DNA from: Tricholomella constricta
Lineage: Eukaryota; Basidiomycota; Agaricomycetes; Agaricales; Lyophyllaceae
Reading direction: 5' to 3'
DNA: 64,000 nucleotides
Assembly (NCBI GenBank): GCA_013368375.1
Contig: JAACJP010000030.1
Coordinates: 513,597 to 577,596 of the forward strand
Positions 21,064 to 64,000 of the stretch are shown one piece after another (the stretch's first letter is position 1; each line of letters opens with the position of its first letter). The notes beneath the pieces were generated by a model. It did not search any database and was not told the origin of the DNA. It saw only the letters and a list, made by a program, of their open reading frames with translations. The position numbers and the translations under genes were made by a program.

Positions 21064-21408
21064 TGTCACGACCGCCTCTGAACTCGCAATCCCTTACGCT
21101 TTCCCACGCACGTCCACCATATATATGATGGCACCACTTCTTTTCAGACTCTTTACCTCGATATTACCAATTGTTAAGACTAGTTCTCGTTCTTGTTTTT
21201 GTTCTCTCTCTCTCTCTCAATTTACTCTGCTCCACACTCGTATCACTTGAGCTCATTCGTTCAAACAAGCCCCGGTGATCGTCTTCGTCAACACTCACGA
21301 CCTCCGAACACCCCTTCAAAGGCCGTCTTCCTTGACGAACGTCAGGCCTGTCCGCCTCAGTGGTCCCAGAATACCTCCGTAACCAGCGTGCTTACACAGG
21401 TCTTAACA
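21064..21408 (+). repeat. gypsy-A 5' LTR
   Basis: 345 bp, TGTCACGACCGCC to GGTCTTAACA, with a TATATATGATGG core-promoter-like stretch near 21121. It matches gypsy-C's LTR along its length and the 3' LTR of gypsy-B. The inverted termini are TGT...ACA. Confidence 0.92.
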
Positions 21409-21437
21409 TAATATCGAGGTTTCCCCACCCACCGGAC

Positions 21438-24262
21438 ATGTCCTCGATGATAGTGGAGCCCAACACCACAGTCCGCTATCAAAACTTCGAAGGTCCCTCT
21501 TTCACACAAAGAAGACCTTCACCACCACCTTTCGAAACCTCCCCTGCCTCAACAGGACACATGATGCAAGGGACTTTTGCATCCAACAGGTCCAGGCTGG
21601 AACACAACATTTTCTAACTAGGCCAACATGAGGGGGACTTTTCCTCAGCCAGTCAGGACCCTCGACGACCTCTACCCCGGACCCCCTCAAACGTATTCAA
21701 CCCGTCCTACCAACTCGCCACCCCCAACTATCCCCCCTTACCACCATCTGCAACGACCTCCGGACCTCCGCCTTCAAGTAACCAGACTCCCGGGTCGTAC
21801 TACGAAAGGTTGAGGCACCCGGAGATGTTCCAGAGGAGGGATAGGGCTTGAGAGGAGGGACAGGGACAGTTCGCTCGTCAACAAAACCCCTTTCTACACG
21901 GTTCAGACCACGAAAGGATACTCTACGAGCTCCGCATGACGCGAGAAGAGTTTTCACGTCAAGCTCACGAACTCTTAGTCGAAACCATGGGGATGGATCA
22001 TCAACCTAGAACACCAGAACAATGGGCCAACCTCGTGCTGTCAACCATGCAACTGCACGAAACCCATCGACTACCCCCACAACTGACGGTGTTGTTGCAA
22101 ATGGGGGGAAACGAAAGAAGATTACGCACCCTGGCTGGAGAAATCCAGACATCCAACGAAGGAAGAAGATTCTCCGACCCCCAAAGCGCGGGACGATCCT
22201 TCCACATGCCGATACAGGAGCCCATTCCCTCCAGGATCGAAACTAAATTCGAAGAGCCTCCACGAGCGACAAGCACTGTCAATACGCAGACAGCTTCGGC
22301 TCTACTCAGGAGGATGAACCAAGGGAACGCACCCCCCAGCCAAGAAGGGTTCGAACCCACTGTCACGCTAGGGGCAGACACTTGAAGAGCTCTGACGTTC
22401 GGGTTCTGGGGAACCCACAACTTACAAAGGATCCCCGAAGAAAACACCTCTCTCGAAGGACCGTTCTCCAGGCCTAACTCGGGTTTTCAAGGCCCACAAA
22501 GGACCTTCGCAATCGAAGAAGGAGCTCCTCCGAGGAAACCCGAGAACATTCCCCTACCCCCATCGGAACAGGGAATCCCAACACCGCTATCGTACGCTCA
22601 CAGCTACAAATTACGCGAAGAAAACCCGGAAGGAGGAGAGGGAACACTCCCTAGAGCACGAGAAGACTGGCGCCAAACACCACCTCACCTGACGAATCAG
22701 AACAGGAGGTCACTGCAAGGCCCACGCCCAATCTCCCCAAGAGAACGACGTGGAATCGGAGCAGACCCCGGCCCCGGTCAGAACGTAAACATGCTCGACG
22801 GAAGGCAATGGGCACAACAACAATTCCCTCAGTTCGAACAATACAGAACTGCCCACAACCTCGGACCAGCGCCACCAATACCCAGCGGACGACCAAACCC
22901 CCAGTACAACGGACCACATCCACAACCCCAAACACCTCCGGGACCTTCGGGACCATCTACCCCAAGAGGATCTCAATGGGGAAATGGCCTCGGGGGACCA
23001 GGAGGGGGAGGAGGAGGTTACGGAGGAGGGGGAGGCCCCGGTGGAGGCGGAGGAGGTCCCAGAGGAGCGGGAGGACCCGGAGGAGGGGGAGGTCACGGAG
23101 GATATGGCCCACCAAGAGGACCAGGTGGCCCGGGAGGCCCCGGAGGTCCCAGATGGGGAGGAGGAGGCCCAGGATGGGGAGGGGGAGGTCACGGAGGAGG
23201 AGGAGGAGGAGGCCCACCCAGAAATTCAGGGGAACGTCACTCCGCAAACCCTCAACAACCCCCACCTCCACCGCAACAACTCTTAGGCCCAAAGCAAAAC
23301 CTGACCCCAGAACAGTACCGACACCTCCTAAACCTAGAATCGAAAATCGACATCCGGAAACCGGACCCCTTCACTGGAAAAGAACCGAGGAGATGGAAAA
23401 CCTTTGTCACGGAATGCCTAGTAACGTTTCAAGCCAAGGCGATTACCTACGAACAGGATCACCTGAAAGTATCATTCGCGAGCTCCTACTTAAAGGACGG
23501 AGCCATGGACTACTTCCGCCTGCAACTCACGTACAACCCGCAACACCCAATGTTCACGAACTGGGAAGGGTTTGTACATGAATTGGGATCACGCTTTGGC
23601 ATACCGAACTCCAGGGTGGAAGCTGAGAATAACATCTCACGACTGAAAATGAAGGAATGGGAGAAATTCACAGCCTTCATCATCAAATTCGAACAAGAAG
23701 CATACGAAACAGGCTGGAACTGGGTAGTGCTACAATTCACGCTCCGAAAAGTGCTCCCCCTGCGAATCCTCAACGTCCTGGCCATCGCACCAAGTCCCGA
23801 AACCTACGAAGTTACAGAGATCTGGTCACTCAAATCGACCGGAGGTACTGGGAACATCGCGTAGAAAATCCAGAGTCCTACAAACCTCTCTGGGCGAATA
23901 ACGCAAACGCCTCCAACACCTCCGCACGACCTCCGATCAGACCTTCGGCGGGACCCGCACACTGCACGACACCGGAAACGACTCAAGGAAATAGGAACGC
24001 ATGCCTGAACGCCAAAAGTCATGATCAGGACCCAGACACAGGTAAGGAAGGTAAGGCGCAGGATCAAGAAATCGCATGGGACGACGAAGAAGCCCTGCAA
24101 GCCAACAATTTCGGTTTCAAGAAGTCAACACGCCCCTGGGTGAAGATCGCCGAAGACGTAAAGCAACAACGGATTTGGGACAAGGCCTGTATCCTATGCG
24201 GTGACCCGGAACACTGGATGCGCGACTGCCCAACAGAAAACGCCATGGGCAGAGCCACCTAG
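21438..24262 (+). pseudogene. gypsy-A gag
   Basis: It starts at MSSMIVEPNTTVRYQNFEG and runs through a Pro-rich N-terminus, a Gly-rich stretch at 22985-23215 (PGGGGGG/RGPGG repeats), a capsid-like helical domain (LTPEQYRHLLNLESKIDIRK through LPLRILNVLAIAPSPETYE) and a CCHC zinc knuckle CILCGDPEHWMRDC near 24190-24231. Stops occur at 21615, 21849 and 22383 and the frame breaks at 23808. The final TAG at 24260 replaces a TAT present in gypsy-B, so gag originally ran on towards pol. Gag packages the RNA; the RGG-like Gly-rich block may add RNA binding. Confidence 0.85.
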
Positions 24263-24313
24263 CTCATCGGCGACGACATCTTCGAATTCCATCACAAGAC
24301 GGAAGAGGGAAAC

Positions 24314-24830
24314 TGTTAGGGCGACCTCCAAGCAGAGCCTAGTCGTACTGGCAGAGGGGAATCCAATGTTATATTATGTACGATAGAGAGAGCGTAAGTA
24401 AACCTACCTGGCAGAGGGGAATCCAATGAGAATAGAGTAAAGGATTCCCCCATGTCAGGAGGATGACTATATACAAGTAAACTACTTGAGGGCCGGCTCT
24501 CTGGGGTGTATAGTACGTAAATGATAACGGATGGGCAGCGGCGCGTGTATGTACATGTTCCCGACGCTGTCCGATCCTTGTGGCTCAGGGTGCGGGTGCA
24601 CGAGGTCGGGCGACCGACGTCGGGACGTCGGGAGTCGGGATCGGGCACGCGCTGGAAGGGGAAGTAACGACAGGAAGTTATAAGTATGTACACCGATGCT
24701 TGGGGCAGGGCGTCGGGGTCGGGATCGCGATCGGTCAGTCAGGCGCGTGATCATCTGAGGATTGGTCGGTCACGTGCTCGTCTGAGGAATCGGATGGTCA
24801 CGTGCTCGCCAAACGGGTGTTTCCCTAACA
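24314..24830 (+). mobile_element. Solo LTR inserted in gypsy-A
   Basis: A 517-bp insert absent from gypsy-B, starting TGTTAGGG and ending CCCTAACA (inverted termini), flanked by the 5-bp duplication GAAAC (24309-24313, 24831-24835). There is no internal coding region, so it is a solo LTR left by LTR-LTR recombination of a third retrotransposon family. It contains a 22-bp direct repeat around GGCAGAGGGGAATCCAATG at 24351 and 24411. Strand is arbitrary. Confidence 0.93.
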
Positions 24831-24835
24831 GAAAC

Positions 24836-27503
24836 GCGGGGGGCGATTCAGGACTTGCCCGGACTCTGAATCGCGAAGATCTAAAACCGGACCTTGACAC
24901 AAAACTACGCGCAACGGCATTATCGACAATGGACACCCGCACAGTAACACTCTCCTCCCACTCGTCACTGGCATTTCTAATACACCTCACGCCAAACGGA
25001 GGAGGAGAAGAACCCGAAAACACGCTTATCGACAGCGGAGCTACCGACAACTTCATGAACTCTGACATGGCGTCATCATGAGGGCTCCACCTTGAGGAGC
25101 TCAACCCTCCAATAAACCTTTGCCTATTTGATGGAGAACTCTCCGCATCGGGCAAAATCACACACTATACCACCAACGACGTCAAATTCAGTGACGGCAC
25201 CACGCAGAGGATAAGATTCCTCCTTACGAAACTCCATGAGACAGCTACGATAGTGCTGGGACTATCATAGTTGAAGGAAGTCAACCCCCGAATAAACTGG
25301 AAAGACCTCTGCATCACGCTACAAAGAGGGTCAAACGGCAAAATCGAAGGATCACTATGGGATCTCCAAAAAAAAAAGGAAGTTGCTCCAACGACGACAG
25401 GCACAGGAACTCAACGCGTACCCTCGCGATCAGCTTGCTCCTTCACGATCGAAGTACAATTGGAAGGATCCTCAACGCGACTACGGGCACTTATTGATAG
25501 TGGGGTGGCGGGCAACTTCATAACACAATCCTCGTGTACAAAGCCGGAACCTCTTGCCAACCCCATGATCGGCGGAAACCCCAGTGGAGGTGGAGCCATT
25601 TCACACCATAGTCCCGAAACAATCAAACTCGAGAACGGACTAGAGTATAAGGTCGGCCTCCTCATAACACAGTTACACCCAGCCACGCCACTAGTGCTCG
25701 GACTACTTGGTTACGGGAAGCAAATCCAGACATCGACTGGCGAGAAATGTCTATGACCATGGAACAAGGAGCAGGACTAGCCGCGATATCGCTTTCCCAG
25801 AAGACACAATGGGGAACCGTGACCCTTGAGGAGGTGGAAGACGTCGAAGCTCCGAAACCAGCCAACCCCCTTTCGGAAAAACAACCCCTCCTCAGGGATC
25901 TCTGGGACAACGATAACGAGCAGAACGACACCTCCAACGACATCAGGAAGAAGACAACCGCCCAAACACCAACAAACCCCAAGAGGAAGTACCAACATCG
26001 ACAACCGAGTCGCAAGAGGAGGTAACAGGTCAGAGACGCACCCGAAAACCACCTCCACTGAACTACTTTCCTCCAAACATTCCCAGGTCAAAATTCAAAC
26101 CCCACCCCAAACGGACATCCGCAACATCCCCAACGACAGAAACACAGGAAGAAGAGGAAACCAACCCGGAAACGGAGGTCGAAGACGAAACCGGAGAGGG
26201 AGAAGAGGATGTCGAAACACAAAACATCCGCCTGAGAGCGGCGCCATTCGCGAACCTCATCAGGGACGGAGCCACAGCGTTCCAACTACACATCTCCCCC
26301 ACCGAAAAGGAAGAACACCTCCATGCCAATAACACCTCCGACGATGAACCCAAGCAACCAAAGACAGAAAAGGAAATCTTCGAGGAAGTCGTACCTTCGG
26401 AGTACAGGGACTTCGAAGACGTATTCTCAGCGGGTGAAGCGAAAACCATCCCCCCACACAGACCTTACAATCACACAGTGGAACTCGATGAAAACACCAC
26501 CCCTCCCTTCGGAAAGATATACAACATGTCCGAACTGGAGTTAAAAGCCCTAAAGGATTACATCGACGAGATGCTCGGCAAAGGGTTCATCCGACCGTCG
26601 AGTTCATCAGCGGGAGCTCCGGTACTGTTCGCAAAGAAGAAGGACAGATCCCTCCGACTATGCGTGGACTATAGAGGATTAAATCAGATCACCAAGAAGA
26701 ACCGTTCAGCAAAGGAACTCGCACAACTATTCCTGGAACACGTCTTCTCCAAACACGGACTGCCCGACGACATCATCTCCAACAGAGGCACCCTCTTTGT
26801 CTCCCGTTTCTGAAGCTCGCTATGTAAAGCCCTGGACATCAAATCGAACCTTTTGACCATGTATCACCTGGAGACCGACGGCCAGATGGAACGAGTAAAT
26901 CGAACACTGGAACAATACCTCCGGATGTACGTGAACTATCTCCAGACCAACTGGCGAACACAGCTCCCTCTGGCGGAGTTCACGTATAACAATACAACAC
27001 ATTCGACCACAGGAGTCTTCCCTTTCTTTGCGAACAAAGGTTATCACCCCCGCCTGACAATCTCTATAAAAGACATACCGGCGAAAGAAGCACAGGAGGT
27101 AGCCGTAGACCTCCGGACCCTCCAAAACTACCTTCACCAAGAAATAAAGATCGCAAACGAAGCCTACAAATGATTCGTGGACAAGAAACAGGACCCCACA
27201 CCAGACTGGGCTGTAGGAACAGAGGTATGGCTCGACTGTTGGAACATCAAGACGAAACGCCCCTCCAAAAAGCTGGACCACCGGAGATCGGGCCCATTCA
27301 AAGTCCTACAAAAGATCTCCAGCCATGCGTATCGACTGGAACCACCTCTGACACTGAAAGGAATTCGCAACGTATTCCACGTCAAGTTATTCGAGAAACA
27401 CGAACATGAGAACTTCCCAGGGCGATCAAAACCACCTCCGCAGACGATCGAAGTCGAAGGCGAAGATCACTATGAAGTAGGACGAATCCCTGACTCCCGA
27501 ACA
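24836..27503 (+). pseudogene. gypsy-A pol with RT deletion
   Basis: Frames in order: protease 1 (LIDSGATDNFM, near 25026), a stop TGA at 25079, protease 2 (ALIDSGVAGNFI, near 25490), a linker, and the RT start (SLRLCVDYRGLNQITKKNR). The sequence then jumps at about 26707 to integrase (AKELAQLFLEHVFSKHGLPD). About 1.66 kb is lost relative to gypsy-B: the rest of RT, RNase H and the integrase zinc finger. The integrase core resumes with ETDGQMERVNRTLEQY and the C-terminus runs to a TGA at 27504. Non-functional. Confidence 0.88.
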
Positions 27504-27506
27504 TGA

Positions 27507-27655
27507 GAGAAACACGTCCTCTACCTGGTACGATGGGAAGGGTATGGCCCTGAAGACGACACCTGGGAACCAGCAAAAAATATAGAAGGAGCAAAGGACA
27601 TGGCCCTTGAATTCCACCGACTATTCCCAAGAAAGCCACGGGACCCCACAATTTA
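27507..27655 (+). pseudogene. gypsy-A chromodomain behind an in-frame TGA
   Basis: Directly after TGA 27504-27506 the same frame reads [21 protein letters not shown] and [13 protein letters not shown], a chromodomain that recognises methylated histone tails and targets chromoviruses to heterochromatin. The first strand of the fold (YEVGRIPDSRT) lies before the stop. The same stop is present in gypsy-B. Confidence 0.85.
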
Positions 27656-27880
27656 AAAGACACTCGACGAACACTCACGCACATCAACACATCACGAAAA
27701 TTATGCAAATTCTCTCAAGATTAAACTCTACTATATGTATTCGACCACCAGCACAACAATATCACAAAAAGAAAAAATATCAAGAAAAAAAAAAAAAAAA
27801 ACAAGTGAACGAACTTCGGACTGTAAATATTTAGCAAAAAAGAAATGGAACGAAGGCCAAGACGCTGCAGAAGGGACCGA

Positions 27881-29860
27881 CTACTCGATGCGACGACGCT
27901 TGGAGGGACCCGCACTGGAAGAAGAACCGCTCTCACGACCACCCCCCACCTCCCCAACCAACCCTACCTCCAGGGGACGCATCGACGCAATGTCCTGCTC
28001 GTCGTCGGCGATCAACTGAGACTGAGATACAAACTCCGCCAAGGCGCCTTCGTGGGTGAGAGAAGGGCGGTGAAGAGCAAGGAAATGCTCGAACGCGGGG
28101 AACGGCGACTCGGGATCGACGGGGGGGCGGAACAGCTCGAGGAGCGAGTGCCGCTCAAGAATCTTGTGGGCGCCATTGATGATACTTCGGACCGGCGACA
28201 CCTCCAACTCGACGAGGGCGCGACGCAGAGCACCATCCGCGATATACATGTCGGACGCGAAGGCGGTACGCACAAGGTCGAGGGCTACGAAAAGTTTCAG
28301 AAACGAGAAGAAGAGAATGAAGGGAATCGAAACTCACCGTCAACACGAGTGCGGAGGTCCAAGGCATGACCACGCCAATAATCCCTAACCTCCTGAAGGT
28401 GGACAACATGCCCCTGCAAACCAGCAACCTCATCCTGAAGAACCGATACCTCCATCCGAAGATCCTCAACCTCCGCATCACAATCGACGTCTACGACCTC
28501 CGAAGTCTGCGCCTGCAGATGAAGGAAGCGCTCGCGTTCATCGGCGAAGTCGGACAATACGCCACAAAGATGGGACTTGGCACGCTGACTCTCGACCCGG
28601 AGAAGCTCGACTTGAACAGAGAGGGCCTGCGCGCGCGCGACCTCCTGGTCATAGAGGCGTTGAAGACGAAGGTACTCCTCAGACGAGGGAGGGGAGGGAA
28701 CCGGGGCAGCAGGGGGGGTCGAAATCAACATGGCGGGGGGGGGAAGGATGCAAAACTGGTGAAGGGGAGTCTGAGGAGGACGACCCTTTTAAAAAGAGAG
28801 GCTCTGAAGGACCGGCGATGGGGAAACCCGGAGACTCGGTGCGCACAACGGGCCCAGAACGACAAACGGGGAAAGGCGAAACCGAACTATTGCGAGAGGA
28901 GGAGGGAGAAGGGCCAGGGATAGGCGAAGAGTGCACCTCCTGAACGGACAAGCGCGCACCCCTACGACCAACAGGCACAGACTTCGATCCTGGCCTCGCG
29001 TACCGCGAAAAAAGGTGCAAGGCGGGGGAGCACGAGGAGGAGGAACAGCACCGGACCCTTCAAGGGATGTGGAAACAATGGGAAGAGGAGGGGGGAGCGG
29101 TAAACGCAAGGCGCGATGGATGTTGGTAAAGGACATCGCAACGCCAGTGCGAGAGAAAGCAAAACCTTCGGCATGAGAGCGAAGCCATGCCAAGGGGATC
29201 CCCAACTGCCTAGCGGCCACTTCTAGGCCATGGTCCAACGAAAGCGAGCACAGGGAGTGCGCCTCACGGCAATCGACACAGGGCAGGGTCCCGCAAAGAC
29301 GGACCTCTCGAAACTGACAGGACAGCTGACGCTCCCGACAACGATCACACTAACGAAGACCCCAAAATGGAATCAACAATTGATCGCAGAAAAAGGGCGA
29401 CACTTACCAGCGCATGTGTCTCACACCACACCAAGGAAGGAGGAACCCGCACAGCGGTACGCAAGGTCTCCGCCAACAGCTCATCCATCAAAAGGGACCC
29501 CCAAGACAACGAGGTCACTGCCGGACGCGACACAGGATCACTGGCCGGTTAAAACTCAACCTCAGGAGTGGAGGAACGAGGACGCCGGATCTGTCAAGAT
29601 CTAACCGGCAGATGAATGACCAAATGATGATCGGGAATTGAGGGAGGTGTGGGAGAAGATTCGGGGACCGCCCCGACACTCTCATCGACAAGTGTGGCGA
29701 TTCCAGGGAGAGAGGATGCCGGGGAAATGGGTCAGGGGAGGTCAAGGAACGCTACATGCGCCCGATCTTCGACGGACAGATGCGCCAACTCGGAATCGCG
29801 CAAAATTGAGCCATGGTCAACGGAGGCGGGGGCCGCGATATCGGGATTGAAGGACGACAT
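27881..29860 (-). pseudogene. gypsy-A antisense gene: Zn2Cys6 - coiled coil protein
   Basis: Minus-strand gene between chromodomain and 3' LTR. The ATG at 29860 gives MSSFNPDIAAPASVDHGSIL; an intron lies at 29350-29407 and a second at 28285-28337. Exon 2 opens with a zinc cluster, CDRCRERQLSC then CGTLPCVDCREAHSLC, with cysteines spaced C-X2-C-X6-C-X12-C-X2-C-X6-C (29349-29248) plus one extra Cys. A long heptad-rich coiled coil follows (28680-28400). Exon 3 is open to the stop at 27881 and ends GPSKRRRIE, a likely nuclear localisation signal. Exon 1 and the middle of exon 2 carry small frameshifts, so this copy is broken. The design is that of a fungal binuclear-cluster DNA-binding protein. 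Confidence 0.75.
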
Positions 29861-29966
29861 GAGAAGGACAAATAGAAGAGGGAGGAGAAACAAACAACCT
29901 AAGTTTTTTCTCCTTTGATCTCCGAGATCCTCAAAAACACCCACAAGGACCTACAACCGAGACCGA

Positions 29967-29983
29967 CACGTGCCCCTCACGTG
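29967..29983 (-). promoter_or_regulatory. Paired CACGTG boxes upstream of gypsy-A antisense gene
   Basis: Two CACGTG palindromes (E-boxes) at 29967 and 29978, starts 11 bp apart, followed by ACCGCGCGC, 107 bp upstream of the antisense ATG. The arrangement is conserved in gypsy-B and gypsy-C. E-boxes are bHLH binding sites. Confidence 0.6.
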
Positions 29984-30015
29984 ACCGCGCGCAACCCAGA
30001 AAGGAGAATAGCTGC

Positions 30016-30325
30016 CCCCACGCACGTCCATCGTATATATGATGGCACTACTTCTTTTCTGACTCTTTACCTCGATATTACCAATTGTTAAGACTAGACT
30101 AGTTCTTGTTCTCATTTTTGTTCTCTCTCTCTCTCAATTTACTCTGCTCCACACTCGTAACACTTGAGCTCATTCGTTCGAACAAGCCCTGGTGATCGTC
30201 TTCGTCAACGCTCACAACCTCCGAACACCCCTTTGAAGGCCGTCTTCCTTGACAAACGTCAGGCCTGTCCGCCTCGGTGGTCTTGGAATACCTCCGTAAC
30301 CAGCGTGCTTACACAGGTCCTAACA
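30016..30325 (+). repeat. gypsy-A 3' LTR, 5'-truncated
   Basis: It matches the 5' LTR from CCCACGCACGTCCA to GGTCCTAACA. The first 70 bp or so, together with the polypurine tract seen in gypsy-B, is deleted. Its right end is intact and is followed by the GTAGA target duplication. Confidence 0.9.
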
Positions 30326-46990: not shown

Positions 46991-47345
46991 TGTTACGACC
47001 GCCCCTAACAACCACCCCTAAAATCACATCCCACTACGCTTTCCCACGCCTACCCACTGTATATAACATGACACCACTTCTTTCCAGACTCTTCACCTTG
47101 ATATTGCTTATTGTTACGACCAGTCCCGTTCTCGATTCCTTTTGCTCTCAAATCTATTCTATTTCCCCGATTTGTATCCCTTGAGCTCCACACGTTCTCG
47201 TAAATGCTCTTGTGAACACATTCGTCGACGCTCACGACCTCCGGATATCCCATTCGAAGGCCGTCTTGCTCGACAAACGTCAGGCCTGTCCGCTTCGGTG
47301 GTTCCAGAACAACTCTGTAACCGGCATGCTACGCAGGTCCTAACA
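46991..47345 (+). repeat. gypsy-B 5' LTR, mosaic
   Basis: 355 bp, TGTTACGACCGCCCC to CAGGTCCTAACA. The first 110 bp match the 3' LTR almost perfectly, including GTATATAACATG as a TATA-like core. After CTCTTCACCT it diverges strongly (GATATTGCTTATTGTTACGA against GATATTACCTATTGTTAAGA) before regaining similarity at GTCAGGCCTGTCCGCTTCGG. Confidence 0.92.
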
Positions 47346-47374
47346 TAATATCGAGGTCCTCCCACCCACCGGAC

Positions 47375-50123
47375 ATGTCCTCGACAATAGTGGAGCCTAA
47401 CACAACCATCCGCTATCAAAACTTCGAAGGTCCCTCCTTCACTCAAAGGAAACCTTCACCACCACCTTTCGAAACCTCCCCTGCCTCAACAGGACCTCCG
47501 ATGCAAGGGACTTTCGGATCCAACAGGTCCAGGTTGGAACACCAGATCTTCCAACCCGGCCAACATGAGGGGGACTTTTCCTCAGCCAGTCAGGACCCTC
47601 GACAACCCCTACCCCGGACCCCCTCAAACGTATTCAACCCGTCCTACCAACTCACCACCCCCAACTATCCCCCCTTACCACCATCCGCAACGGCCTCCGG
47701 ACCTCCGCCTTCAAGTAACCAGACTCCCGGGTCATACTACGAAAGGTTGAGGCACCCGGAGATGTTCCAGAGGAGGGATAGGGCTAGAGAGGAGGGACAG
47801 GGACATTTCGCTCGTCAACAAAACCCCTTTCTACACGGTTCAGACCACGAAAGGATACTCTACGAGCTCCGCATGACGCGGGAAGAAGTTTTGCGACAAG
47901 CGCACGAGCTCCTAGTTGAAACCATGGGGATGGATCATCAACCCCGAACACCGGAACAATGGGCCAACCTCGTGTTGTCGACTATGCAACTGCACGAAGC
48001 CCATCGATTACCCCCACAACTGACGGTGTTGCTACAAATGGGGGGAAACGAAAGAAGGTTACGCGCCCTGGCTGGAGAAATCCAGACGTCCAACGAGGGA
48101 AGAAGATTCTCCGACCCCCAAAGCACGGGACGTTCCTTCCACATGCCAATTCAGGAGCCCGTCCCCTCCAGAATTGAAACTAGATTCGAAGAACCTCCAC
48201 GAGCGACAAGCACTGTCAATACGCAGACAGCTTCGGCTCTACTCAGGAGGATGAACCAAGGGAACGCACCCCCCAGCCAAGAAGGGTTCGAACCCACTGT
48301 CACGCTAGGGGCAGACACTTGAAGAGCTCCGACGTTCGGGTTCTGGGGAACCCACAACTTACAAAGGATCCCCGAAGAAAACACCTCTCTCGAAGGACCG
48401 TTCTCCAGGCCTAACTCGGGTTTTCAAGGCCCACAAAGGACCTTCGCAATCGAAGAAGGAGCTCCTCCGAGGAAACCCGAGAACATTTCCCTACCTCCGT
48501 CGGAACGGGGAATCCCAACGCCACTGTCGTACGCCCACAGCTACGAATTACGCGAAGAAAACTCGGAAAGAAGAGAGGGAGCACCCCCTAGGGCACGGGA
48601 AGACTGGCACCAAACACCACCTCATCTGGCGAATCAGAACAGGAGGTCACCGCAAGGCCCACGCCCAATCTCCCCAAGAGAACGACGTGGAATCGGAGCG
48701 GACCCCGGCCCCGGTCAAAACATAAACATCCTCGACGGAAGGCAAGGGACCCAACAACAATTCCCCCAGTTCGAACAATACAGAACTGGCTACAACCCCG
48801 GACCAGCCCCACCCATACCCGGCGGACGATCGAACCCCCAGTACAACGGACCACCTCCACAGCCCCAACCACCTCCGGGATCTTCGGGACCACCTACCCC
48901 GAGAGGAACTCAATGGGGAAACGGCCCCGGAGGACCAGGAGGGGAAGGAGGAGGTTATTGGGGAAACGGCCCTGGAGGAACAGGAGGTCCTGGAGGAGGG
49001 GGAGGTCATGGAGGATACGGACCACCACAAGGACCAGGAGGCCTGGGAGGCCCCGGAGGTCCCGGAGGGGGAGGAGGAGGCCACGGAGGAGGAGGAGGAG
49101 GAGGCCCACCCGGAAATCCGGGAGGAGGCCAATTCGCAAACCCTCAACGACCCCCACCTCCACCACAACAATTCTTAGGCCCAAATCAAAACCTGACCCC
49201 AGAACAGTACCGACACCTCCTAAACCTAGAATCGAAAATCGACATCCGGAAACCGGACCCCTTCACTGGAAAAGAACCGAGGAGATGGGAAAACCTTCGT
49301 CACGGAATGCCTAGTAACGTTTCAAGCCAAGGCGATTACCTACGAACAGGACCACCTGAAAGTATCATTCGCGAGCTCCTACTTAAAGGACGGAGCCATG
49401 GACTACTTCCGCCTGCAACTCACGTACAACCCGCAACACCCAATGTTCACGAACTGGGAAGGGTTTGTACATGAATTGGGATCACGCTTTGGCATACCGA
49501 ACTCCAGGGTGGAAGCCGAGAATAACATCTCACGACTGAAAATGAAGGAATGGGAAAAGTTCACAGCTTTCATCATCAAGTTCGAACAGGAAGCATATGA
49601 AACAGGCTGGAACTGGGTAGCGCTACAATTCACGCTGCAAAAAGTGCTCCCCCAACGAATCCTCAACGTCCTAGCCATCGCACCAAGCCCTGAAACCTAC
49701 GAAGGTTACCAAGATCTGATCACTCAAATCAACCGGAGGTACTGGGAACATCGTATAGAAAATCCAGAGTCCTACAAACCCCTTTGGGCGAATAACACAA
49801 ATACCTCCAACACCTCCGCACGACCTCCGATTGGACCTTCGGCCGGACCTGCAAACCGCACGACGCTGCAAACGACCCAAGGGAGCAGGAATGCACGCTT
49901 GAACGCCGAAGGTCACGACCAGGACCCGGACACAGGTAAGGAAGGTAAGGCGCAAGACCAGGAAATCGCATGGGACGACGAGGAGGCCCTACAAGCCAAC
50001 AACTTCGGGTTCAAGAAGTCAACACGCCCCTGGGTGAAGATCGACAAAGACGTAAAGCAACAACGAATTCGAGACAAGGCCTGCATCCTATGCGGTGATC
50101 TGGAACACTGGATGCGCGACTGA
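47375..50123 (+). pseudogene. gypsy-B gag
   Basis: From MSSTIVEPNTTIRYQNFEG, open to TGA 48320. It stays open in the same frame (RAPTFGFWGTHNLQ, then a Gly-rich block at 48920-49125) until a 1-nt insertion near 49289 (GATGGGAAAA against GATGGAAAA in gypsy-A). It continues in a third frame with the capsid-like domain to a TGA at about 50121 inside the zinc knuckle (CILCGDLEHWMRD then stop). So this gag cannot be made whole, though each lesion is small. The TGA at 48320 sits at the same codon as in gypsy-A. Confidence 0.87.
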
Positions 50124-50227
50124 ACAGCAAACACCATGGGCAGAGCCACCTATCTCATCGGCGACGACATCTTCGAATTCCATCACAAGACAGAAGAGGG
50201 AAACGCGGGGGCGATTCAGGACTTGCC

Positions 50228-53200
50228 CGGGCTCTGAATCGCGAAGATCTAAAACCGGACCTTGACACTAAACTACGCGCAACGGCATTATCGACAACGG
50301 ACACCTGCACAGTAACTCTCTCCTCCCATTCGTCACTGGCATTTCTAATACACCTCACGCCAAATGGAGGAGGAGAAGACCCCGAAAACACGCTCATCGA
50401 CAGCGGAGCTACCGACAACTTCATGGACTCCGTCATGGCGACATCACGTGGGCTCCACCTCGAGGAGCTCAACCCCCCAATAAACCTCTGCCTATTCGAC
50501 GGGGAACCCTCCGCATCAGGCAAAATCACACACTATACCACCAACGACGTCAAATTCAGTGACGGCACCACTCAGAGGATAAGATTCCTCATAACGAAAC
50601 TCCACGAGACAGCGACGATAGTGCTGGGACTATCATGGCTGAGGGAGGTCAACCCCCGCATAAATTGGAAAGACCTCTGCATCACGCTACGACGGGGGTC
50701 AAACGGCAAAATTGAAGGATCACTACGGGACCTCCGAAGGAAAAAGGAAGTCGTCCCAACGACAACAGGCACAGGAAATCAACGCTTACCCTCGCGGTCA
50801 ACTCGCTCCTTCACGATCGAAGTACAGTTAGAAGGATCCTCAACGCGACTACGGGCACTTATCGATAGTGGAGCGGCGGGAAATTTCATAGCACAATTCT
50901 CGTGTACGAAACCGGAACCTCTCGCCAGCCCCATGACCTTACAACTGTTCGACGGAAACCCCAGCGGAGGTGGAACCATTTCACACCATAGTCCCGAAAC
51001 AATCAAACTCGAGAACGGACTAGAGTATAAGGTCGACCTCCTCATAACACAATTACATCCAGCCACACCAGTAGTGCTTGGATTATCTTGGTTACGAGAA
51101 GCAAATCCGGACATCGACTGGCGGGAAATGTCCATGACCATGGAACAAGGGGCAGGACTAGCCGCGATATCGCTTTCCCAGAAGACGCAATGGGGAACCG
51201 TGACCCTTGAGGAGGAGGAAGACGTCGAAGCTCCGAAACCAGCCAACCCCCTTTCGGAGAAACAACACCTCCTCAGGGACCTCCTGGACGACGACAACGA
51301 TCAGAACGACACCCCCAGCGACAACATGAAGGAGGAAGACACCCGCCCAAACACCAACGAACCCCAAGAGGAAGTACCAACACCGACAACCGAGTCGCCA
51401 GAGGAGGTAACGGGACGGAAACGCACCCGAAAACCACCCCCACCGAACTACTTCCCTCCAAACATTCCCAGGTCAAAATTCAAACCCCACCCCAAACGGA
51501 AATCCGCAACATCCCCAACGACAGAAACACAGGAAGAAGAGGAAACCAACCCGGAAACGGAGGTCGAAGACGAAACCGGAGAGGGAGAAGAGGATGTCGA
51601 AACACAAAACATCCGCCTGATTAGAGCGGCGCCATTCGCGAACCTCATCAGGGACAGAGCCACAGCGTTCCAACTACACATCTCCCCCACTGAAAAGGAA
51701 GAACACCTCCATGCCAATAACACCTCCGACGATGAACCCAAGCAACCAAAGACAGAAAAGGAAATCTTCGAGGAAGTCATACCTCCGGAGTACAGGGACT
51801 TCGAAGACGTATTCTCAGCGGGTGAAGCAAAAACCATCCCCCCACACCGACCTTACGATCACACAGTGGAACTCGACGAAAACACTACCCCTCCCTTCGG
51901 AAAGATATACAACATGTCCGAACTGGAGTTGAAAGCATTGAAGGATTACATCGATGAGATGCTTGGAAAAGGGTTCACCCGACCTTCGAGTTCGTCAGCG
52001 GGAGCTCCGGTACTGTTCGCAAAGAAGAAGGACGGATCACTCCGGCTATGCGTGGACTATAGAGGATTAAATCGGATCACCAAGAAGAACCGTTACCCTC
52101 TACCTCTGATCGGAGACCTCATAGACCGACTTCAAAAAGCGAAAGTATACTCGAAGATCGACCTCCGAGTGGGCTACAACAACGTCCGTATAGCTCCGGG
52201 ACACGAATGGAAGACAGCCTTCCGCACTCGTTATGGACTTTTCGAATACCTGGTAATGCCTTTCGGCATGACAAACTCACCCGCGACATTCCAACACTTC
52301 ATGAACGACATCTTCCACGACATGAACGACGTGTTCGTAGTGATCTATCTCGACGACATTCTGGTTTTCTCGGAGACCTTAGAGGAACATCACGGACACG
52401 TTTGGAAGGTCCTCGAGAGGCTCCGGAAACACAACCTTCATGCGAAACCGGAGAAATGCACGTTTCACACTACGGAGATCGAATACCTAGGCGTCATCGT
52501 ATCCCCTGGCGGAGTAAAGATGGATCCAGGAAAAGTCGACGCGATCCGGAAGTGGCCTAGACCGACGAAGGTCAAGGAACTCCAATCTTTCCTAGGCTTT
52601 GCAAACTTCTATCGGCGGTTTATCGACAATTACTCGGGCATAACGAAGAGGTTAAACAAACTCACGCAAAAGGACACAATCTGGAAATGGGATTTCGAAT
52701 GCGAAGGAGTCTTCGAGCTATTGAAGAAAGCATTCTCCTCCGCACCCATCCTACGACACTTCGATCCTCAACTACCGGTGATATTAGAGTGCGACGCTTC
52801 CGACTTCGCCATAGCGGGGATCATCTCCCAATTTGACGAGACATCACAAGACTTACGTCCTGTCGCCTTCTACGCGAGAACTATGATAGACGCGGAGCTC
52901 AACTACGACATCTATGACAAGGAGCTCCTAGCAATCGTGGAAGCGTTTAAGCAATGGAGGGCCTACCTAGAGGGATCTCCCCACCGCATTCAAGTGTACT
53001 CTGACCACAACAACCTACAGTATTTCTCTACGACCAAGCAACTCAGTCGCAGACAAGCACGATGGTCGGAATGCCTGGCAAACTTCGACTTCCAAATAAA
53101 CTACAGACCCGGAAGATTAGGAGCGAAACCAGATGCCCTCACGCGACGGCCAGACGTGTATCCCAAGAAAGGGTTCGAACAGGATCATAATTCGTTCAAC

Positions 53201-54550
53201 AACCGCATCATTTTACCCCCCGAACGATTGAACGCGGCCCTAATACTGAACGAGGAGCTCCTACTAAACAACATCCGGAACACACCCCGAGACGAATTCT
53301 TCGAGAGACATGCACCCAGACCCGGAGATGAGACCTCCGCGTTCTCCCTATCCGATGATCACAAACTACTCCTTCGCGACGGAAGAATCTACGTACCGGA
53401 CCATTCCAGATTATGCCTCGACATCCTGCAGCAACATCACGATCACAAACTGCGCGGACATCCAGGGATCAGAAAGACCACACAACTCATCATGAGGACT
53501 TATTTCTGGCCCGGATTACGGAAGGAGGTCACTCGATACGTCCGAAGCTGTTATACCTGTAAAAGAGCGAAGGTCCCACGCCATAGCCCATATGGACTAT
53601 TGAAACCACTCCAGATTGGGCGAAGGGCGTGGGCCTCCATATCCATGGTCCACATTGTAGAACTACCGGAATCGGATGGGTACGACGCCATACTGGTCGT
53701 AGTATGCCGCCTCACCAAGCAAGGCATCTTCATACCCTGTCACACAACGGACACAGCAAAGGAACTTGCTCAACTATCCTTGGAACATGTCTTCTCCAAG
53801 CACGGACTGCCCGACGACATCATATCGGACAGGGGCACCCTCTTCGTCTCCTGTTTCTGGAGCTCGCTGTGTAAAGCCCTGGACATTAAATCGAACCTTT
53901 CGACCGCGTATCACCCGGAGACCGACGGCCAGACGGAACGAGTAAATCAGACACTGGAACAGTACCTCCGGATATACGTGAACTACTTCCAGACCAACTG
54001 GCGAACACAGCTCCCACTGGCGGAATTCACGTATAACAATATGACCCATTCGACCACGGGAGTCTCTCCTTTCTTTGCGAACAAGGGTTATCACCCCCGC
54101 CTGACAATCTCTATAAAAGACATACCGGCAAAGGAAGCCCAGGAGGTAGCCGTAGACCTCCGGACCCTCCAGGACTACCTCCGCCAAGAGATAGAGATCG
54201 CAAACGAAGCCTACAAACGATTCGCGGACAAGAAACGGGACCCTACACCAGATTGGGCCGTAGGAACGGAGGTATGGCTTGATTGCCGGAACATCAAAAC
54301 GAAACGCCCCTCCAAAAAGCTGGACCACCGGAGACTGGGCCCCTTCAAAATCCTACAGAAGATCTCCAGCCACGCGTATCGACTGGAACTACCTCCGACA
54401 CTGAAGGGAATTCACAATGTGTTCCACGTCAAGTTACTCGAAAAACACGAACACGAGAACTTCCCAGGACGATCAAAGCCACCTCCGCAGACAATCGAAA
54501 TCAAGGGCGAGGAGCACTACGAAGTAGAACGAATCCTAGACTCCCGAACA
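50228..54550 (+). CDS. gypsy-B pol polyprotein: PR-PR-RT-RNase H-integrase
   Basis: One uninterrupted frame (first ATG 50423, 1,376 codons to the TGA). Domains: retropepsin-like 1 with DSGA at 50399-50410; a second retropepsin-like copy with DSGA at 50864-50875, each followed by a VLGLSWLRE motif; an acidic linker; RT with SLRLCVDYRGLN, SKIDLRVGY and YLDD at 52346-52357; RNase H with ECDASDFAIAG, YDKELLAIVEAFKQWR and VYSDHNNLQYF; integrase with an HHCC finger (GHPGIRKTTQLIM...CYTCKRAK), SDRGTLF and HPETDGQTERVN. The expected first catalytic Asp (SMDxI) reads Val (SMVHIVELP, 53648-53650), so integration is probably lost. Pol lies out of frame with gag because a G-run at about 50206 has five G where gypsy-A has six. 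Confidence 0.93.
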
Positions 54551-54908: not shown

Positions 54909-56917
54909 CTAGTCAATGCGACGACGTTTGGACGGACCCGCGCTCGGAGTGGAACCCTCCCCGCGACCAAACCCGACCTCCCCATCCAACTTCCCCTCCA
55001 ACGGACGCATCGAAGCAATATCCTGCTCATCGTCGGCGATTAATTGGGATCGAGACATGAAGTCCGCAAGGGCGTCTTCACGAGTGAGCGAAGTTGCAAA
55101 GCAAGGAAATGATCGAACGCAGGGAAGAGTACCTCGGGGTCGACGGGAGGGGGGAAGAGCTCGAGGAGCGAATGCCGCTCCAGGACCTTATGGGCGGCGT
55201 CGACAATATCCCGGGCCGGCGACACCTCCATCTCGACGAGGGCGCGACGCAAGGCACCGTCGGCGACAAACATGTCCGACGCAAAGGCGGTACGCGCAAG
55301 TTCAAGGGCTATGACAAACTCAGACAACGAGAGAGGAACGACACGAATCAAAAAACTCACCGTCGACATGAACGCGAAGGTCCAAGGCATGACCACGCCA
55401 ATGGTCCCGGACCTCCTGAAGATGGACGACGTGCTCCTGAAGACCCGCTACCTCATCCTCGAGACCCGCAACCTGCATCCGCAGATCCTCAACCTCAGCG
55501 TCACGATCGACGTCGACGACCTCCACGGCACGCGATGTCTGCGCCTGCAGATGAAGAAGGCGTTCACGCTCGTCAGCGACTTGGGATAGGACTCCGTGAA
55601 AACGACCTTTGTGGCGTTCACCCTCGACCTCGAGACGCTCGACCTGGGAGGAAAGGACCTGAGCACGCGCGACCTCCTGGTCGTAGAGACGCTGGAGATG
55701 GAGAAACGCCTCCGGCGAAGGAACGGAAGGAGCAGGGGTAGCGAGGGGGGACGACAGCAACATGGAGGGAGGGCAGGACTGCAGGGCTGGCGATGGCAAA
55801 ACTGAATTGGACGAGCTCTTTAAAAAGAGAGGTCGTCAGGGGTCGTATCGGGGGACACCGCACGCGTAGCGCCCGACAAAGGAGGAACCAAAAGAGGAGA
55901 AGTCGGCGCCGTGGAGAAAGGGAGGGGGAACGAGGCAAAGGACACCCCCTAGACCCCTGCAGACCAGACCGCATACCCCCACGACCAACAGACGCTAATT
56001 TTCGACCCTGTCCTCGGGTACCACGAAAGATAGCACGCGCAGGCGGAGCACGGCTAAGGCGAACGGCGGCCTCGTCCCCAGAAGAAGAGGAAAGGGAAAG
56101 GACCTCCGTAGAAGGCACGGAGACAAGAGAGGAGTCGAAGGAGGGGGACGTCACACGCAAGATACGACGGATAGCGGAAAAGGACATAGCGACGCCGGTG
56201 CGGGAGAAGGAAAAACCTTCGGTACGGGTCCGCAACCACGCCAAGGGGATCGCCAATTCCCTAGATGCCACCTCTAGACCATGGTCAAGCGACAGGGAGC
56301 ACAAGGCGTGCGCCGCGCGGCAATCGACGCAGGGCAAGGTCCCACGAAGACGAACCTCCTGAAAACGGCAAGACTGATGACGACCCCGACACCGATCACA
56401 CTAGCAAAGAGCCAAAAAAGAGAATCAGCGGAAGGATCCAGCCCGATCGCGAACGAAAGACGATACTTACCGGTCCGTGCGCCTCACACCAAGCCAAAGA
56501 GGGAGGAACCCGCACAGCGGTACGCATCACCTCCGCCAGAACCGCATCTGTCAAGAGGGGCCCCCAAGACAATGAAGTCGCCGCCGGACGCGACACGGGA
56601 TCACTGGAAAATTCGAAAAGGGCCTCCGGAGTGGTCGAACGGGGGCGACGGATCTGCGGAGCCCTGACCGGAAGACGAATAACCAGTCGAGGGAAGGAGG
56701 GCGTAGGAGGAACGGGGGAAGAACTGGGGACGGCCCCGACGCTTCCATCTCGGAGAACGGCGATCCCAGGGAGAGAAGGAGTAGGGGAGACGGGTCGGGG
56801 CATGTCCAAGAACGCGACGCGCGCCCGATCTTCTTCGGATAAACGCGCCAACTCTTGATCGCGCAAAATTTGGGCAGCGGAGGCAGACGGTGCAAATTCT
56901 CGATTGAAGACCGACAT
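54909..56917 (-). CDS. gypsy-B antisense gene: Zn2Cys6 - coiled coil protein
   Basis: The ATG at 56917 (MSVFNREFAPSASAAQ) opens a 149-codon exon 1 without breaks. An intron lies at 56401-56470 (GTAAGT to TAG). Exon 2 begins CDRCRGRHQSCRF and CVDCRAAHALC, an exact C-X2-C-X6-C-X12-C-X2-C-X6-C cluster (56400-56299). A basic/Ser-rich linker (IFRGTRGQGRK) follows, then a long coiled coil (LHLQRLYDQEVARAQVLSSQ ... EVVDVDRDAEVEDLRMQVAG, about 55720-55400). The second intron is 55309-55360. Exon 3 has ASDMFVADGALRRALVEMEV and ends GPSKRRRID before TAG 54909-54911. One or two 1-nt shifts in the linker and exon 3 break the frame. The role is inferred: a nuclear DNA-binding regulator or silencer encoded by the retrotransposon. 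Confidence 0.75.
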
Positions 56918-57027
56918 GGAGATGATAAAAAGAAATTAGAGGAGAAAAAACAACCAGAGCTCTCCTCTTTTTCGATCTCCGAGATCCTCCAAATCACCCA
57001 CATGGACCCACAATCGACCTAGACCCG

Positions 57028-57044
57028 CACGTGCCCCTCACGTG
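57028..57044 (-). promoter_or_regulatory. Paired CACGTG boxes upstream of gypsy-B antisense gene
   Basis: CACGTG at 57028 and 57039 (starts 11 bp apart), followed by ACCGCGCGCG, 111 bp upstream of the antisense ATG. Same layout in gypsy-A and gypsy-C. Confidence 0.62.
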
Positions 57045-57125
57045 ACCGCGCGCGACCCAGAAAGAAAAACAACCGCCACACTATCCGTATTCGAACATCT
57101 CCCCGCGTCTCAGTGGCTCGACGCT

Positions 57126-57136
57126 TGAGGAGGGGG
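57126..57136 (+). other. gypsy-B polypurine tract
   Basis: TGAGGAGGGGG, three bases before the 3' LTR: the plus-strand priming site. Confidence 0.8.
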
Positions 57137-57139
57137 TAA

Positions 57140-57498
57140 TGTCACGACCGCCCCTAACAACCACCCCTAAAATCACATCCCACTACGCTTTCCCACGCCT
57201 ACCCACTGTATATAACATGACACCACTTCTTTCCAGACTCTTCACCTCGATATTACCTATTGTTAAGACTAGTTCTCGATTCTCGTTCTCGTTTCTCTCT
57301 CTCTCTCTCAATCTATTTGGCTTCACACCCGTATCACTTGAGCTCGTTCGTTCGAATCAGCCCCGGTGAACACCTCCGTCAACGCTCACGACCTCCGAAT
57401 ACTCCTTCGTAGGCCGTCTTCCTTGACGGACGTCAGGCCTGTCCGCTTCGGTGGTTCCAGAATAACTCTGTAACCGGCGTGCTACACAGGTCCTAACA
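57140..57498 (+). repeat. gypsy-B 3' LTR
   Basis: 359 bp, TGTCACGACCGCCCC to CAGGTCCTAACA, with a (TC)n stretch CTCTCTCTCTCTC absent from the 5' LTR but present in the LTRs of gypsy-A and gypsy-C. It is inserted into ORF3 of gypsy-D and followed by GTTTG. Confidence 0.93.
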
Positions 57499-61745: not shown

Positions 61746-61750
61746 GTTTG

Positions 61751-62097
61751 TGTTAGGACCTGTGTAGCACGCCGGTTACAGAGTTATTCTGGAACCACCG
61801 AAGCGGACAGGCCTGACGTCCGTCAAGGAAGACGGCCTACGAAGGAGTATTCGGAGGTCGTGAGCGTCGACGGAGGTGTTCACCGGGGCTGATTCGAACG
61901 AACGAGCTCAAGTGATACGGGTGTGAAGCCAAATAGATTGAGAGAGAGAGAGAGAAACGAGAACGAGAATCGAGAACTAGTCTTAACAATAGGTAATATC
62001 GAGGTAAGGAGTCTGAAAAGAAGTGGTGCCATCATATATACGGTGGACGTGCGTGGGAAAGCGTAAGTGATTGCGAGTTTTAGGGGCGGTCGTGACA
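61751..62097 (-). repeat. gypsy-C 3' LTR (reverse orientation)
   Basis: 347 bp, the reverse complement of TGTCACGACCGCCCC...GGTCCTAACA, close to gypsy-A's 5' LTR (TATATATGATGG core, TC-run) and gypsy-B's 3' LTR. The element body lies to the right, so this is the 3' LTR. The base run next to it is GTTTG (61746-61750). Confidence 0.92.
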
Positions 62098-62110
62098 TTA
62101 CCCCCTTCTC
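62098..62110 (-). other. gypsy-C polypurine tract
   Basis: TTACCCCCTTCTC on the plus strand, read as GAGAAGGGGGTAA before the LTR on the minus strand, equivalent to the tract in gypsy-B. Confidence 0.75.
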
Positions 62111-62196
62111 AAGCGTCGAGCCACTGAGACGCGGAAAAGGAAATGTTCGAATACGGGGAGTGTGGCGGTTATTCTCCTTTCTGGGTCGCGCGCGGT

Positions 62197-62213
62197 CACG
62201 TGAGGGGCACGTG
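62197..62213 (+). promoter_or_regulatory. Paired CACGTG boxes upstream of gypsy-C antisense gene
   Basis: GCGCGCGGT then CACGTG at 62197 and 62208 (starts 11 bp apart), 112 bp before ATG 62320. Third conserved instance of the same arrangement. Confidence 0.62.
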
Positions 62214-62319
62214 TCGGTCTCGGTTGTAGGTCCTTGTGGGTGTTTTTGAGGATCTCGGAGATCGAAAGAGAAAAAACTTAGGTTGTTTGTTCCTCCTCCA
62301 TCTTCTCTTCGTCCTGCTC

Positions 62320-64000
62320 ATGTCGTCCTTCAATCTCGATATCGCGGCCCCCGCCTCCGTTGACCCTAGCACGATTTTGCGCGATTCCGAGTTGGCGCAG
62401 CTGTCCGTCGAAGATCGGGCGCGTGTGGCGTTCCTTGGCGTACCCCGACCCGTTTCCCCGACGTCCTCTCTTCCTGGGATCGTCACACTTGTCGATGGGA
62501 GTGTCGGGGCGGTCCCCGAATCTTCTCCCGCACCTCCCTCAATTCCCGATCATCGGCTGGTCATCCGTCTGCCGGTTCGATCTCGACAGATCCGGCGTCC
62601 TCGTTCCTCCACTCCAGAGGTTGAGTTCGAACCGGCCAGCGATCCTGTGTCGCGTCCGGCGGCGACTTCGTTGTCCTGGGGGTCCCTTTTGACGGATGAG
62701 CTGTTGGCGGAGATCCTGCGTACCGCTGTGCGGGTTCCCCCTTCCTTGGCGTGGTGTGAGACGCATGCACCGGTAAGTGTTGCCCTTTTTCTGCGATCGA
62801 TTGTTGATTCCATTTTGGGGTCTTCGTTAGTGTGATCGTTGTCGGGAGCGTCGGCTGTCCTGTCGATTTCAGGAGGTCCGTCTTCGCGGGACCCTGCCCT
62901 GTGTCGACTGCCGTGCGGCACACTCCCTGTGTTCGCTTTCGTTGGAGCATGGCCTAGAAGTGGCCGCTAGGCAGTTGGGGATTCCCTTGGCGTGGTTGCG
63001 CTCTCGTGCGGAAGGCTTTGCTTTCTCTCGCACTGGCGTCGCGATGTCCTTTACCAGTATCCGTCGCGCCTTGCGTTTACCGCTCCCCCCTCCTCTTCCT
63101 GTTGTTTCCACATCCCCTGAAGGGTCCGGTGCTGTTCCTCCTCCTCGTGCTCCCCCGCCTCGCGCCTTTTTTCGCGGTACGCGAGGCCAGGGTCGAAAGT
63201 CTGTGCCTGTTGGCCGTAGGGGTGCGCGCTTGTCCGTTCAGGAGGTGCGCTCTTCGCCTATCCCTGGCCCTTCTCCCTCCTCCTCCCGCGGATAGTTCGG
63301 TTTCGCTTGTCCCCGTTCGTCGTTCTGGGCCCATTGTGCGCACCGAGTCTCCGGATTCCCCCATCGCCGGCCCTTCGGAGCCTCTCTTTTTTAAAAGGGT
63401 CATCCTCCTCAGGCTCTTCTTCACCCGTTTTGCCCTCTTCCCCCCCCGCCATGTTGATTTCGACCCCCCCTGCTTGCTCGGTTTCCCTCCCCTCCCTCGT
63501 CTGAGGAGTACCTCCGTCTTCAACGTCTCTATGACCAGGAGGTCGCGCGCGCGCAGGCCCTCTCTGTTCAAGTCGAGCTTCTCCGGGTCGAGGGTCAACG
63601 TGCCAAGTCCCATCTTCGTGGCGTATTGGCCGACTTCACCGATGAACGTGAGCGTTTCCTTCATCTGCAGGCGCAGACTTCGGAGGTCGTAGACGTCGAT
63701 CGTGACGCGGAGGTTGAGGATCTTCGGATGGAGGTGTCGGTTCTTCAGGATGAGGTTGCTGGTTTGCAGGGGCACGTTGTCCACCTTCAGGAGGTTAGGG
63801 ATCATTGCGTGGTCACGCCTTGACCTCCGTACTCGCGTTGACGGTGAGTTTCGATTCCCTTCATTTTCTCCTTCTTGTTTCTAAGACTTTTCGTAGCCCT
63901 CGACCTTGCGCGTACCGCCTTCGCGTCCGATATGTATATCGCGGATGGTGCTTTGCGTCGCCACCCTCGTCGAGTTGGAGGCGTCGCCAGTCCGAAGTAT
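62320..64000 (+). CDS. gypsy-C antisense gene: Zn2Cys6 - coiled coil protein (runs off the window)
   Basis: ATG 62320 opens exon 1 (MSSFNLDIAAPASVDPSTIL ... LLTDELLAEILRTAVRVPP), unbroken to 62772. Intron 62773-62830 (GTAAGT to TAG) joins in phase. Exon 2 starts CDRCRERRLSCRFQEVRLRG then CVDCRAAHSLC, the cleanest zinc cluster of the three (62831-62932). It stays open to 63295 through the AFFRGTRGQGRKSVPVGRRG basic linker. Frameshifts in homopolymer runs near 63390 and 63480 disturb the linker. The coiled coil follows (63510-63800: LYDQEVARAQALSVQVELL, AEVEDLRMEVSVLQDEVAGL). Intron 2 is 63844-63896; exon 3 starts ALDLARTAFASDMYIADGAL and leaves the window. It is antisense to the host element; function inferred as for gypsy-B. 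Confidence 0.78.

Follow-up and report, generated by a model that had tools for sequence, protein, structure and literature searches.

The window analysed here, a 64,000-nt stretch of the 44.1-Mb Tricholomella constricta genome (contig JAACJP010000030.1, C30, positions 513597-577596, the last being the contig end), raises the question of why chromodomain Ty3/gypsy retrotransposons should carry a gene with introns antisense to gag-pol, where that gene came from, and what its product might do. With moderate confidence, we propose that a chromodomain Ty3/gypsy family carries an antisense gene whose probable source is a captured cellular gene and which would likely act as the element's own transcription regulator.

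Three copies of the antisense gene in the window

A sequence-only reading of the window had described three copies (A, B and C) of one three-exon gene, each placed between the chromodomain and the 3' LTR of its element. Re-reading of the sequence bore out the coordinates, the strand, the three exons and both introns of every copy (Table 1). The layout was the same throughout, with an MS-F- start, a GT-AG intron, an exon started by CDRCR and a second GT-AG intron. The exon 1 junction of copy C matched that in the NCBI models P0001 and P0002, in which both introns lie at the same sites as in the element gene. The proposed siting held in that the gene is antisense between pol and the 3' LTR, but the pol and chromodomain of copy C lie outside the window, this copy being truncated by the contig end and not merely by the window end. 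The chromodomain at 60033-60884 (minus) belongs to another gypsy fragment. The integrase and chromodomain at 60033-61775 (minus), which adjoin the 3' LTR of C, are of another Ty3/gypsy lineage (~31% to the B pol).

All three window copies have broken frames. In copy A, exon 1 contains three stops and the frame of exon 2 is disrupted; the frame of copy B is disrupted in both exon 2 and exon 3, and that of copy C in exon 2, after 63292. Element A is a simple, degraded insertion. Element B is not a simple insertion, since its LTRs are only ~83% alike and no matching target-site repeat was found; it is a recombinant or rearranged element. Its chromodomain stretch runs to ~54664, past an in-frame stop. 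We also observed that the B pol is stop-free over 1483 codons despite the diverged LTRs and mismatched flanks.

Table 1. Coordinates of the antisense gene copies and associated element features in the window.
Feature	Position	Strand	Remarks
Copy C exon 1	62320..62772	+	151 codons, ATG at 62320
Copy C intron 1	62773..62830	+	GT-AG, 58 nt, phase 0
Copy C exon 2	62831..63843	+	six-cysteine domain 62831-62932, linker, most of predicted coiled coil
Copy C intron 2	63844..63896	+	GT-AG, 53 nt
Copy C exon 3 start	63897..64000	+	ends with contig
Near-palindrome GAGGATCTCGGAGATC upstream of ATG	62248..62263	+	conserved; candidate operator
Module with two CACGTG boxes	62194..62213	+	conserved; candidate antisense promoter element
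Polypurine tract (PPT) adjoining 3' LTR of element C	62098..62110	-	
3' LTR of element C	61751..62097	-	
Copy B exon 1	56471..56917	-	
Copy B exon 2	55361..56400	-	frame broken, six cysteines retained
Copy B exon 3	54909..55308	-	frame broken, ends with SKRRRID-stop
3' LTR of element B	57140..57498	+	PPT at 57127-57139
pol of element B	50102..54550	+	protease, RT, RNase H, integrase; antisense gene is on the other strand
gag region of element B	47324..48319	+	
Element B	46991-57498	+	flanks GGTCC and GTTTG differ
Copy A, degraded	27881..29860	-	exon 1 29408-29860, exon 2 28338-29349, exon 3 27881-28284
Copy A introns	29350-29407; 28285-28337	-	intron 1; intron 2
Element A, LTR to LTR	21064..30325	+	TSD GTAGA on both sides

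The gene belongs to one element family

The exon 2 query gave 138 matches in the genome; about ten rows come from paralogs that lie outside the element, and some broken copies account for two rows each. By hand count, 128 rows had no in-frame stop. For pol, the B integrase end was used as a query, 150 of 673 first candidates were scored, and 150 of 151 matches were listed: 103 at ≥84% identity, 3 at 50-83%, and 44 at 46-48%. The last group is a sister gypsy family of at least 44 copies, and it is probably larger. Exon 2 lay antisense within 6 kb downstream of pol in 100 of the 103 listed copies at ≥84% identity (median 1389 bp) and in two of the three listed intermediate copies, while among the 44 listed sister copies no antisense exon 2 was found within that distance. 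Two of the three copies without such a match in the ≥84% group retain later parts of the gene. The antisense gene is integral to the element family; presence in most copies of a family, by which LTR elements with an antisense ORF are recognised, is what the listed copies display.

The family has the features of Ty3/gypsy chromoviruses. The order PR-RT-RH-INT was found in the B pol and a chromodomain in L010, another copy of the family (Chromo match, E = 8e-15), along with LTR pairs, 5-bp TSDs and a PPT (at B and C). Besides that of element A, TSDs were GCGTC in s2 and GATGG in s4, and one was also found for s1 (L010 copy).

For each of five subfamily representatives (s1, L013; s2, L039; s3, L040; s3b, L041; s4, L042), splicing would give an uninterrupted protein 622-635 aa long; the first intron measures 58-73 nt and the second 52-60 nt. 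A pattern-based check, which altered splice sites can escape, covered the 30 best-scoring matches, all s1-like, and four copies picked as open; 21 of these 34 had an open spliced frame of 622-635 codons. Among the best 30 s1-like loci, 17 had a full frame closed by KRRRI, one more ended with KRCRI, and 12 did not retain it. Within-copy LTR identity in open-gene copies was 100% for s2, 98-99% for s4 and 99.5% over the 192 bp compared for s3; the s4 pol has one stop, though its antisense gene is open. The other LTR pairs were 99.7% (s1, L010 copy), 91% (A) and 83% (B) identical, and exon 1 of the L010 copy is interrupted despite its nearly identical LTRs. The LTR pairs and the frame states together mean that the gene is whole in some young elements and already lost in others.

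In L010 and L012, whose elements otherwise look young, exon 1 measures 590 nt versus 453 nt; part of it is repeated and the frame is lost. In the model P0002, the antisense gene is joined to a piece of copia RT and the sequence deviates near the end of exon 3, and the flank at L013:3-359 reads like a copia integrase; these copia pieces possibly reflect an insertion preference.

Selection on the antisense protein

Over the 10 subfamily pairs, dN/dS by NG86 was 0.20-0.30 (bootstrap upper limits ≤0.37; dS among the five subfamilies 0.42-0.87), and hence not near 1. In the four pairs with s1, the lowest ratios were those of exon 3 (0.10-0.13) and of the six-cysteine domain with the next 50 residues (0.08-0.21), followed by the coil (0.14-0.26) and the second half of exon 1 (0.18-0.23). 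The last 26 residues (0.22-0.46), the first half of exon 1 (0.30-0.47) and the linker (0.37-0.49) had higher values. Just over half of the changes fell at third codon positions in each of the 10 pairs (202 of 358 for s1-s2).

All six cysteines, noted earlier as kept in the three window copies, were retained in 50 of the 51 distinct element copies examined, the exception being L054, a degraded copy that has lost one. The 57 rows of this survey comprised the 51 element copies, five cellular paralogs and a second row for one locus (L009, which is copy C). The sample was non-random, with the 30 best-scoring matches and the rest picked for diversity, and L047 and L063-L065 gave no row. The antisense gene evolves as a protein under purifying selection, and such selection is silent about the role of the protein.

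These values bear on the view that the captured gene is a passive passenger, hitch-hiking with recent copies. LTR elements that have transduced genes are on record (PMC7264820), and the full frame or the KRRRI end is missing in 13 of the 34 copies checked. Nevertheless, the gene accompanies nearly all listed pol copies, and purifying selection acts at dS up to 0.87; the passenger view is contradicted by dN/dS, and we regard it as highly improbable.

The six-cysteine domain, coil and C-terminus

The C-X2-C-X6-C-X12-C-X2-C-X6-C motif that opens exon 2 with CDRCR was found as described in the sequence-only reading, which had matched it to the fungal Zn2Cys6 cluster. The cysteine spacing agrees with that identity, but the element proteins fall under the Pfam cut-off, so that the profile argues only weakly for membership. 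Against a Zn_clus (PF00172) gathering score of 21 bits, the element proteins reached 11.2-17.0 bits where a score was shown. Isolated domains matched Zn_clus in 12 of 13 cases (best E = 9.4e-4; first member 17.0 bits), and full-length element proteins scored below the isolated domains. In a profile search of PDB chains, the LEU3 zinc cluster was the best match (E = 0.017) with the six cysteines aligned, and an unrelated protein came next (0.072). Of 30 distinct domain sequences, 25 fitted a PROSITE-like Zn2Cys6 pattern. The AlphaFold2 model of the domain (pLDDT 75.8) has a helix at each CxxC; the matches listed in fold searches included no zinc cluster. A Pfam scan at E ≤ 1 gave neither TRP28 (PF04195) nor bZIP. 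We describe the domain as zinc-cluster-like and keep it out of PF00172.

The coiled coil proposed to follow the domain is compatible with a long helix predicted by AlphaFold2 at 372-499. The full protein model is poor (mean pLDDT 50.6), and the heptad periodicity is moderate, being matched by 4 to 19 of 300 shuffles. The terminal KRRRI(E/D) reported for A and B was confirmed, and a C-terminal SKRRRI is invariant across the five subfamily representatives. The protein resembles Leu3-type Zn2Cys6 factors in the cysteine spacing, the basic first half and a coiled coil further on; it differs from them in falling below the Pfam cut-off, in the ~190 residues that separate the predicted coil from the domain, and in being retrotransposon-borne.

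Cellular paralogs and a probable capture

Weaker exon 2 matches were located on C15, C63, C71, C75, C82 and C10, none of them beside a listed pol copy. Neither gag and pol of the gene-bearing element nor the end of a second element, used as queries, gave a match in L043-L047 (from C63, C15, C75 and C10). The exact six-cysteine spacing is common to all these paralogs except that of C10, and a P-x2-W-x3-R stretch stands behind the cysteines in all of them, C10 included. In the four paralog genes read in the DNA, an intron occupies the identical place, between Pro and the first Cys, in phase 0; P0003 is the NCBI model of one paralog. Since the paralogs share the six-cysteine spacing and the exact position of intron 1, capture from a cellular gene is probable. 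The element gene most likely derives from this paralog family, intron included, and the direction of capture would be from cell to element. The retained intron fits an antisense capture: with the gene antisense, the genomic RNA would keep its introns, and these would thus persist through retrotransposition, which suggests how a spliced gene can live in a retrotransposon.

Near-identical paralog matches occur on C15, C71, C82 and C75, some near contig ends, and are possibly due to recent or subtelomeric duplication.

Two of four cellular paralog domains scored above the Zn_clus cut-off (22.2 and 21.5 bits), each as two stretches in swapped profile order; in the printed alignment, the second half lay on the profile start and the first half on the profile end. 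After the halves were swapped in silico, these two rose to 25.2 and 24.9 bits in one stretch, while the other two went from 13.4 to 16.8 and from 13.7 to 13.1. Judged by these alignments, the cellular paralogs may have a zinc cluster in permuted form, its basic half standing second. In the element domain, the basic CDRCRERR half comes first. Full-length P0003 scored 16.6 bits. Reverse-order Pfam stretches were seen at L045:1539-1724, at L045:6868-7053 and in P0003.

Conserved motifs upstream of the gene

Two motifs in the spacer upstream of the ATG, GGTCACGTGAGGG(G/A)CACGTG and GAGGATCTCGGAGA(T/C)C, were retained in 8 of 8 aligned copies, the spacer being otherwise variable. The CACGTG module has 99 exact places in the genome (reversed control, 0), 97 of which precede an exon-1 match on its upstream side by no more than 1 kb. 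The 19-bp palindrome pattern has 106 places (reversed control, 0).

A conserved upstream module would also suit a role for the antisense RNA instead of the protein, in which convergent transcription would yield dsRNA that limits the element; a role of that kind is discussed for plant antisense ORFs (PMC7264820). However, the dN/dS range together with the open frames in five divergent subfamilies points to a selected protein, and the remaining five frames hold 6-30 stops each in these subfamilies. An RNA-only role is therefore improbable in our view.

Divergent alleles on near-identical backbones

Among B, s2 and s4, dS was 0.036-0.139 in pol and 0.42-0.76 in the antisense gene, with s3 standing for B in the gene comparison (97-100% identical in tiles). 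For s2-s4, the values were 0.036 in pol versus 0.763 in the gene, with non-overlapping bootstrap ranges. Tiled along B, identity to other elements was mostly 90-99% up to ~54480, and mostly 65-90% from the gene on into U3; for s1, s2 and s3 it returned to high values in R-U5. The pattern is a mosaic: the B gene is common to s3, s4 is 93-99% identical to B from the chromodomain to ~55050 and then mostly 66-92%, and s3b is 94-96% identical to B around 55540-55640. As the gene is far more diverged than pol between elements, divergent alleles have been exchanged between near-identical backbones, and the identity mosaic is the footprint of between-lineage recombination, either by template switching or through gene conversion.

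By analogy with the repressor-operator swaps of lambdoid phages, the antisense gene could be the specificity module of an "immunity region", in which the captured zinc-cluster regulator of each lineage would recognise its own promoter, and lineages would escape mutual control by swapping the module between near-identical gag-pol backbones. We offer this as a tentative idea, on the unlikely side; in the tiled comparison, U3 type and gene type were not in strict agreement.

The chromodomain end diverges along with the gene in several element pairs. This observation, with the basic C-terminal motif, the predicted long helix and the presence of a chromodomain integrase in the same element, speaks for a partner in integration, a protein that would bind to DNA or chromatin and act jointly with the integrase chromodomain to steer the pre-integration complex to its targets or into the nucleus. 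Antisense coding, however, implies a product made apart from gag-pol, and no such gene lies near the 44 listed copies of the sister gypsy family; we consider this role possible but unlikely.

Deeply divergent alleles are also what arms races would yield. Together with the kinship to a cellular family, they would accord with a protein acting mainly on the host, e.g. by blocking a host silencing regulator, or on other elements. On the other hand, no host target is known, and constraint on the protein is strongest in the six-cysteine and exon-3 regions. We find a host or foreign-element target rather improbable, somewhat more so than an integration role.

A putative antisense regulator and its precedents

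In the favoured reading, that of an element-borne transcription regulator, a promoter in the ~210-bp spacer inside the 3' LTR, with its two conserved CACGTG boxes, would read the gene antisense to gag-pol, and the two short introns would be removed from the antisense transcript. The protein would enter the nucleus via the C-terminal KRRRI(E/D) and pair through the coiled coil, and the six-cysteine domain, presumably holding zinc, would bind element DNA beside its own start and in U3. The most likely effect would be that sense transcription is held down or tuned, as by HBZ in HTLV-1. The site by the 3' LTR, the coding selection, the predicted coil, the basic C-terminus and the nucleic-acid-type domain would suit an HBZ-like regulator. 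HBZ likewise comes from an antisense gene starting at the 3' LTR, and its leucine-zipper product lowers sense transcription and supports its own (PMC3185765). HBZ is, however, a retroviral bZIP protein unrelated in sequence, and the likeness is one of functional analogy only.

Both plant elements and the fungal Boty elements provide earlier examples of antisense genes at this site. The sequence-only reading named the plant ORFs; the fungal precedent, the cellular source family and the allele exchange were absent from its account. Zhao et al. 2011 reportedly described Boty-like elements with an antisense gene, brtn, in Botrytis and Sclerotinia. The gene brtn of fungal Boty-like elements also appears in later sources (PMC7264820, PMC8365987, PMC4227169). 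By these descriptions, Boty is, like the present family, a fungal chromodomain Ty3/gypsy element with an extra antisense gene between pol and the 3' LTR, but its host is an ascomycete; the comparison is by description, not by brtn sequence, and these descriptions give brtn no zinc-cluster-like domain or cellular source.

The plant elements Retand, Grande and RIRE2 have antisense ORFs between pol and the 3' LTR, in nearly all recent copies, and a nuclear or DNA-binding role has been proposed for them (PMC11963269, PMC7264820). Retand carries TRP28, which was found to have no similarity outside TEs (PMC11963269); in contrast, the Tricholomella gene gave no TRP28 match, contains introns, encodes a six-cysteine domain and has paralogs that lie outside the element. 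Three features are new in this family: a likely cellular source that shares the intron, the presence of a six-cysteine domain, and divergent alleles that have been exchanged.

Both the source and the role of antisense genes in LTR retrotransposons are unsettled in general; in this family a likely source can be named via the paralogs. With allele exchange on near-identical backbones, the evolution of regulator specificity in a eukaryotic mobile element becomes open to testing, and one mushroom genome offers ~100 copies for comparison.

Other repeats in the window

Three copies of another repeat, one of them inverted, were seen at 5033-7472, 9475-11315 and 12165-14624; its long ORF reads like a non-LTR reverse transcriptase with RNase H. 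Two adjacent 272-bp units at 34212-34755 are 100% identical and constitute a very recent tandem duplication.
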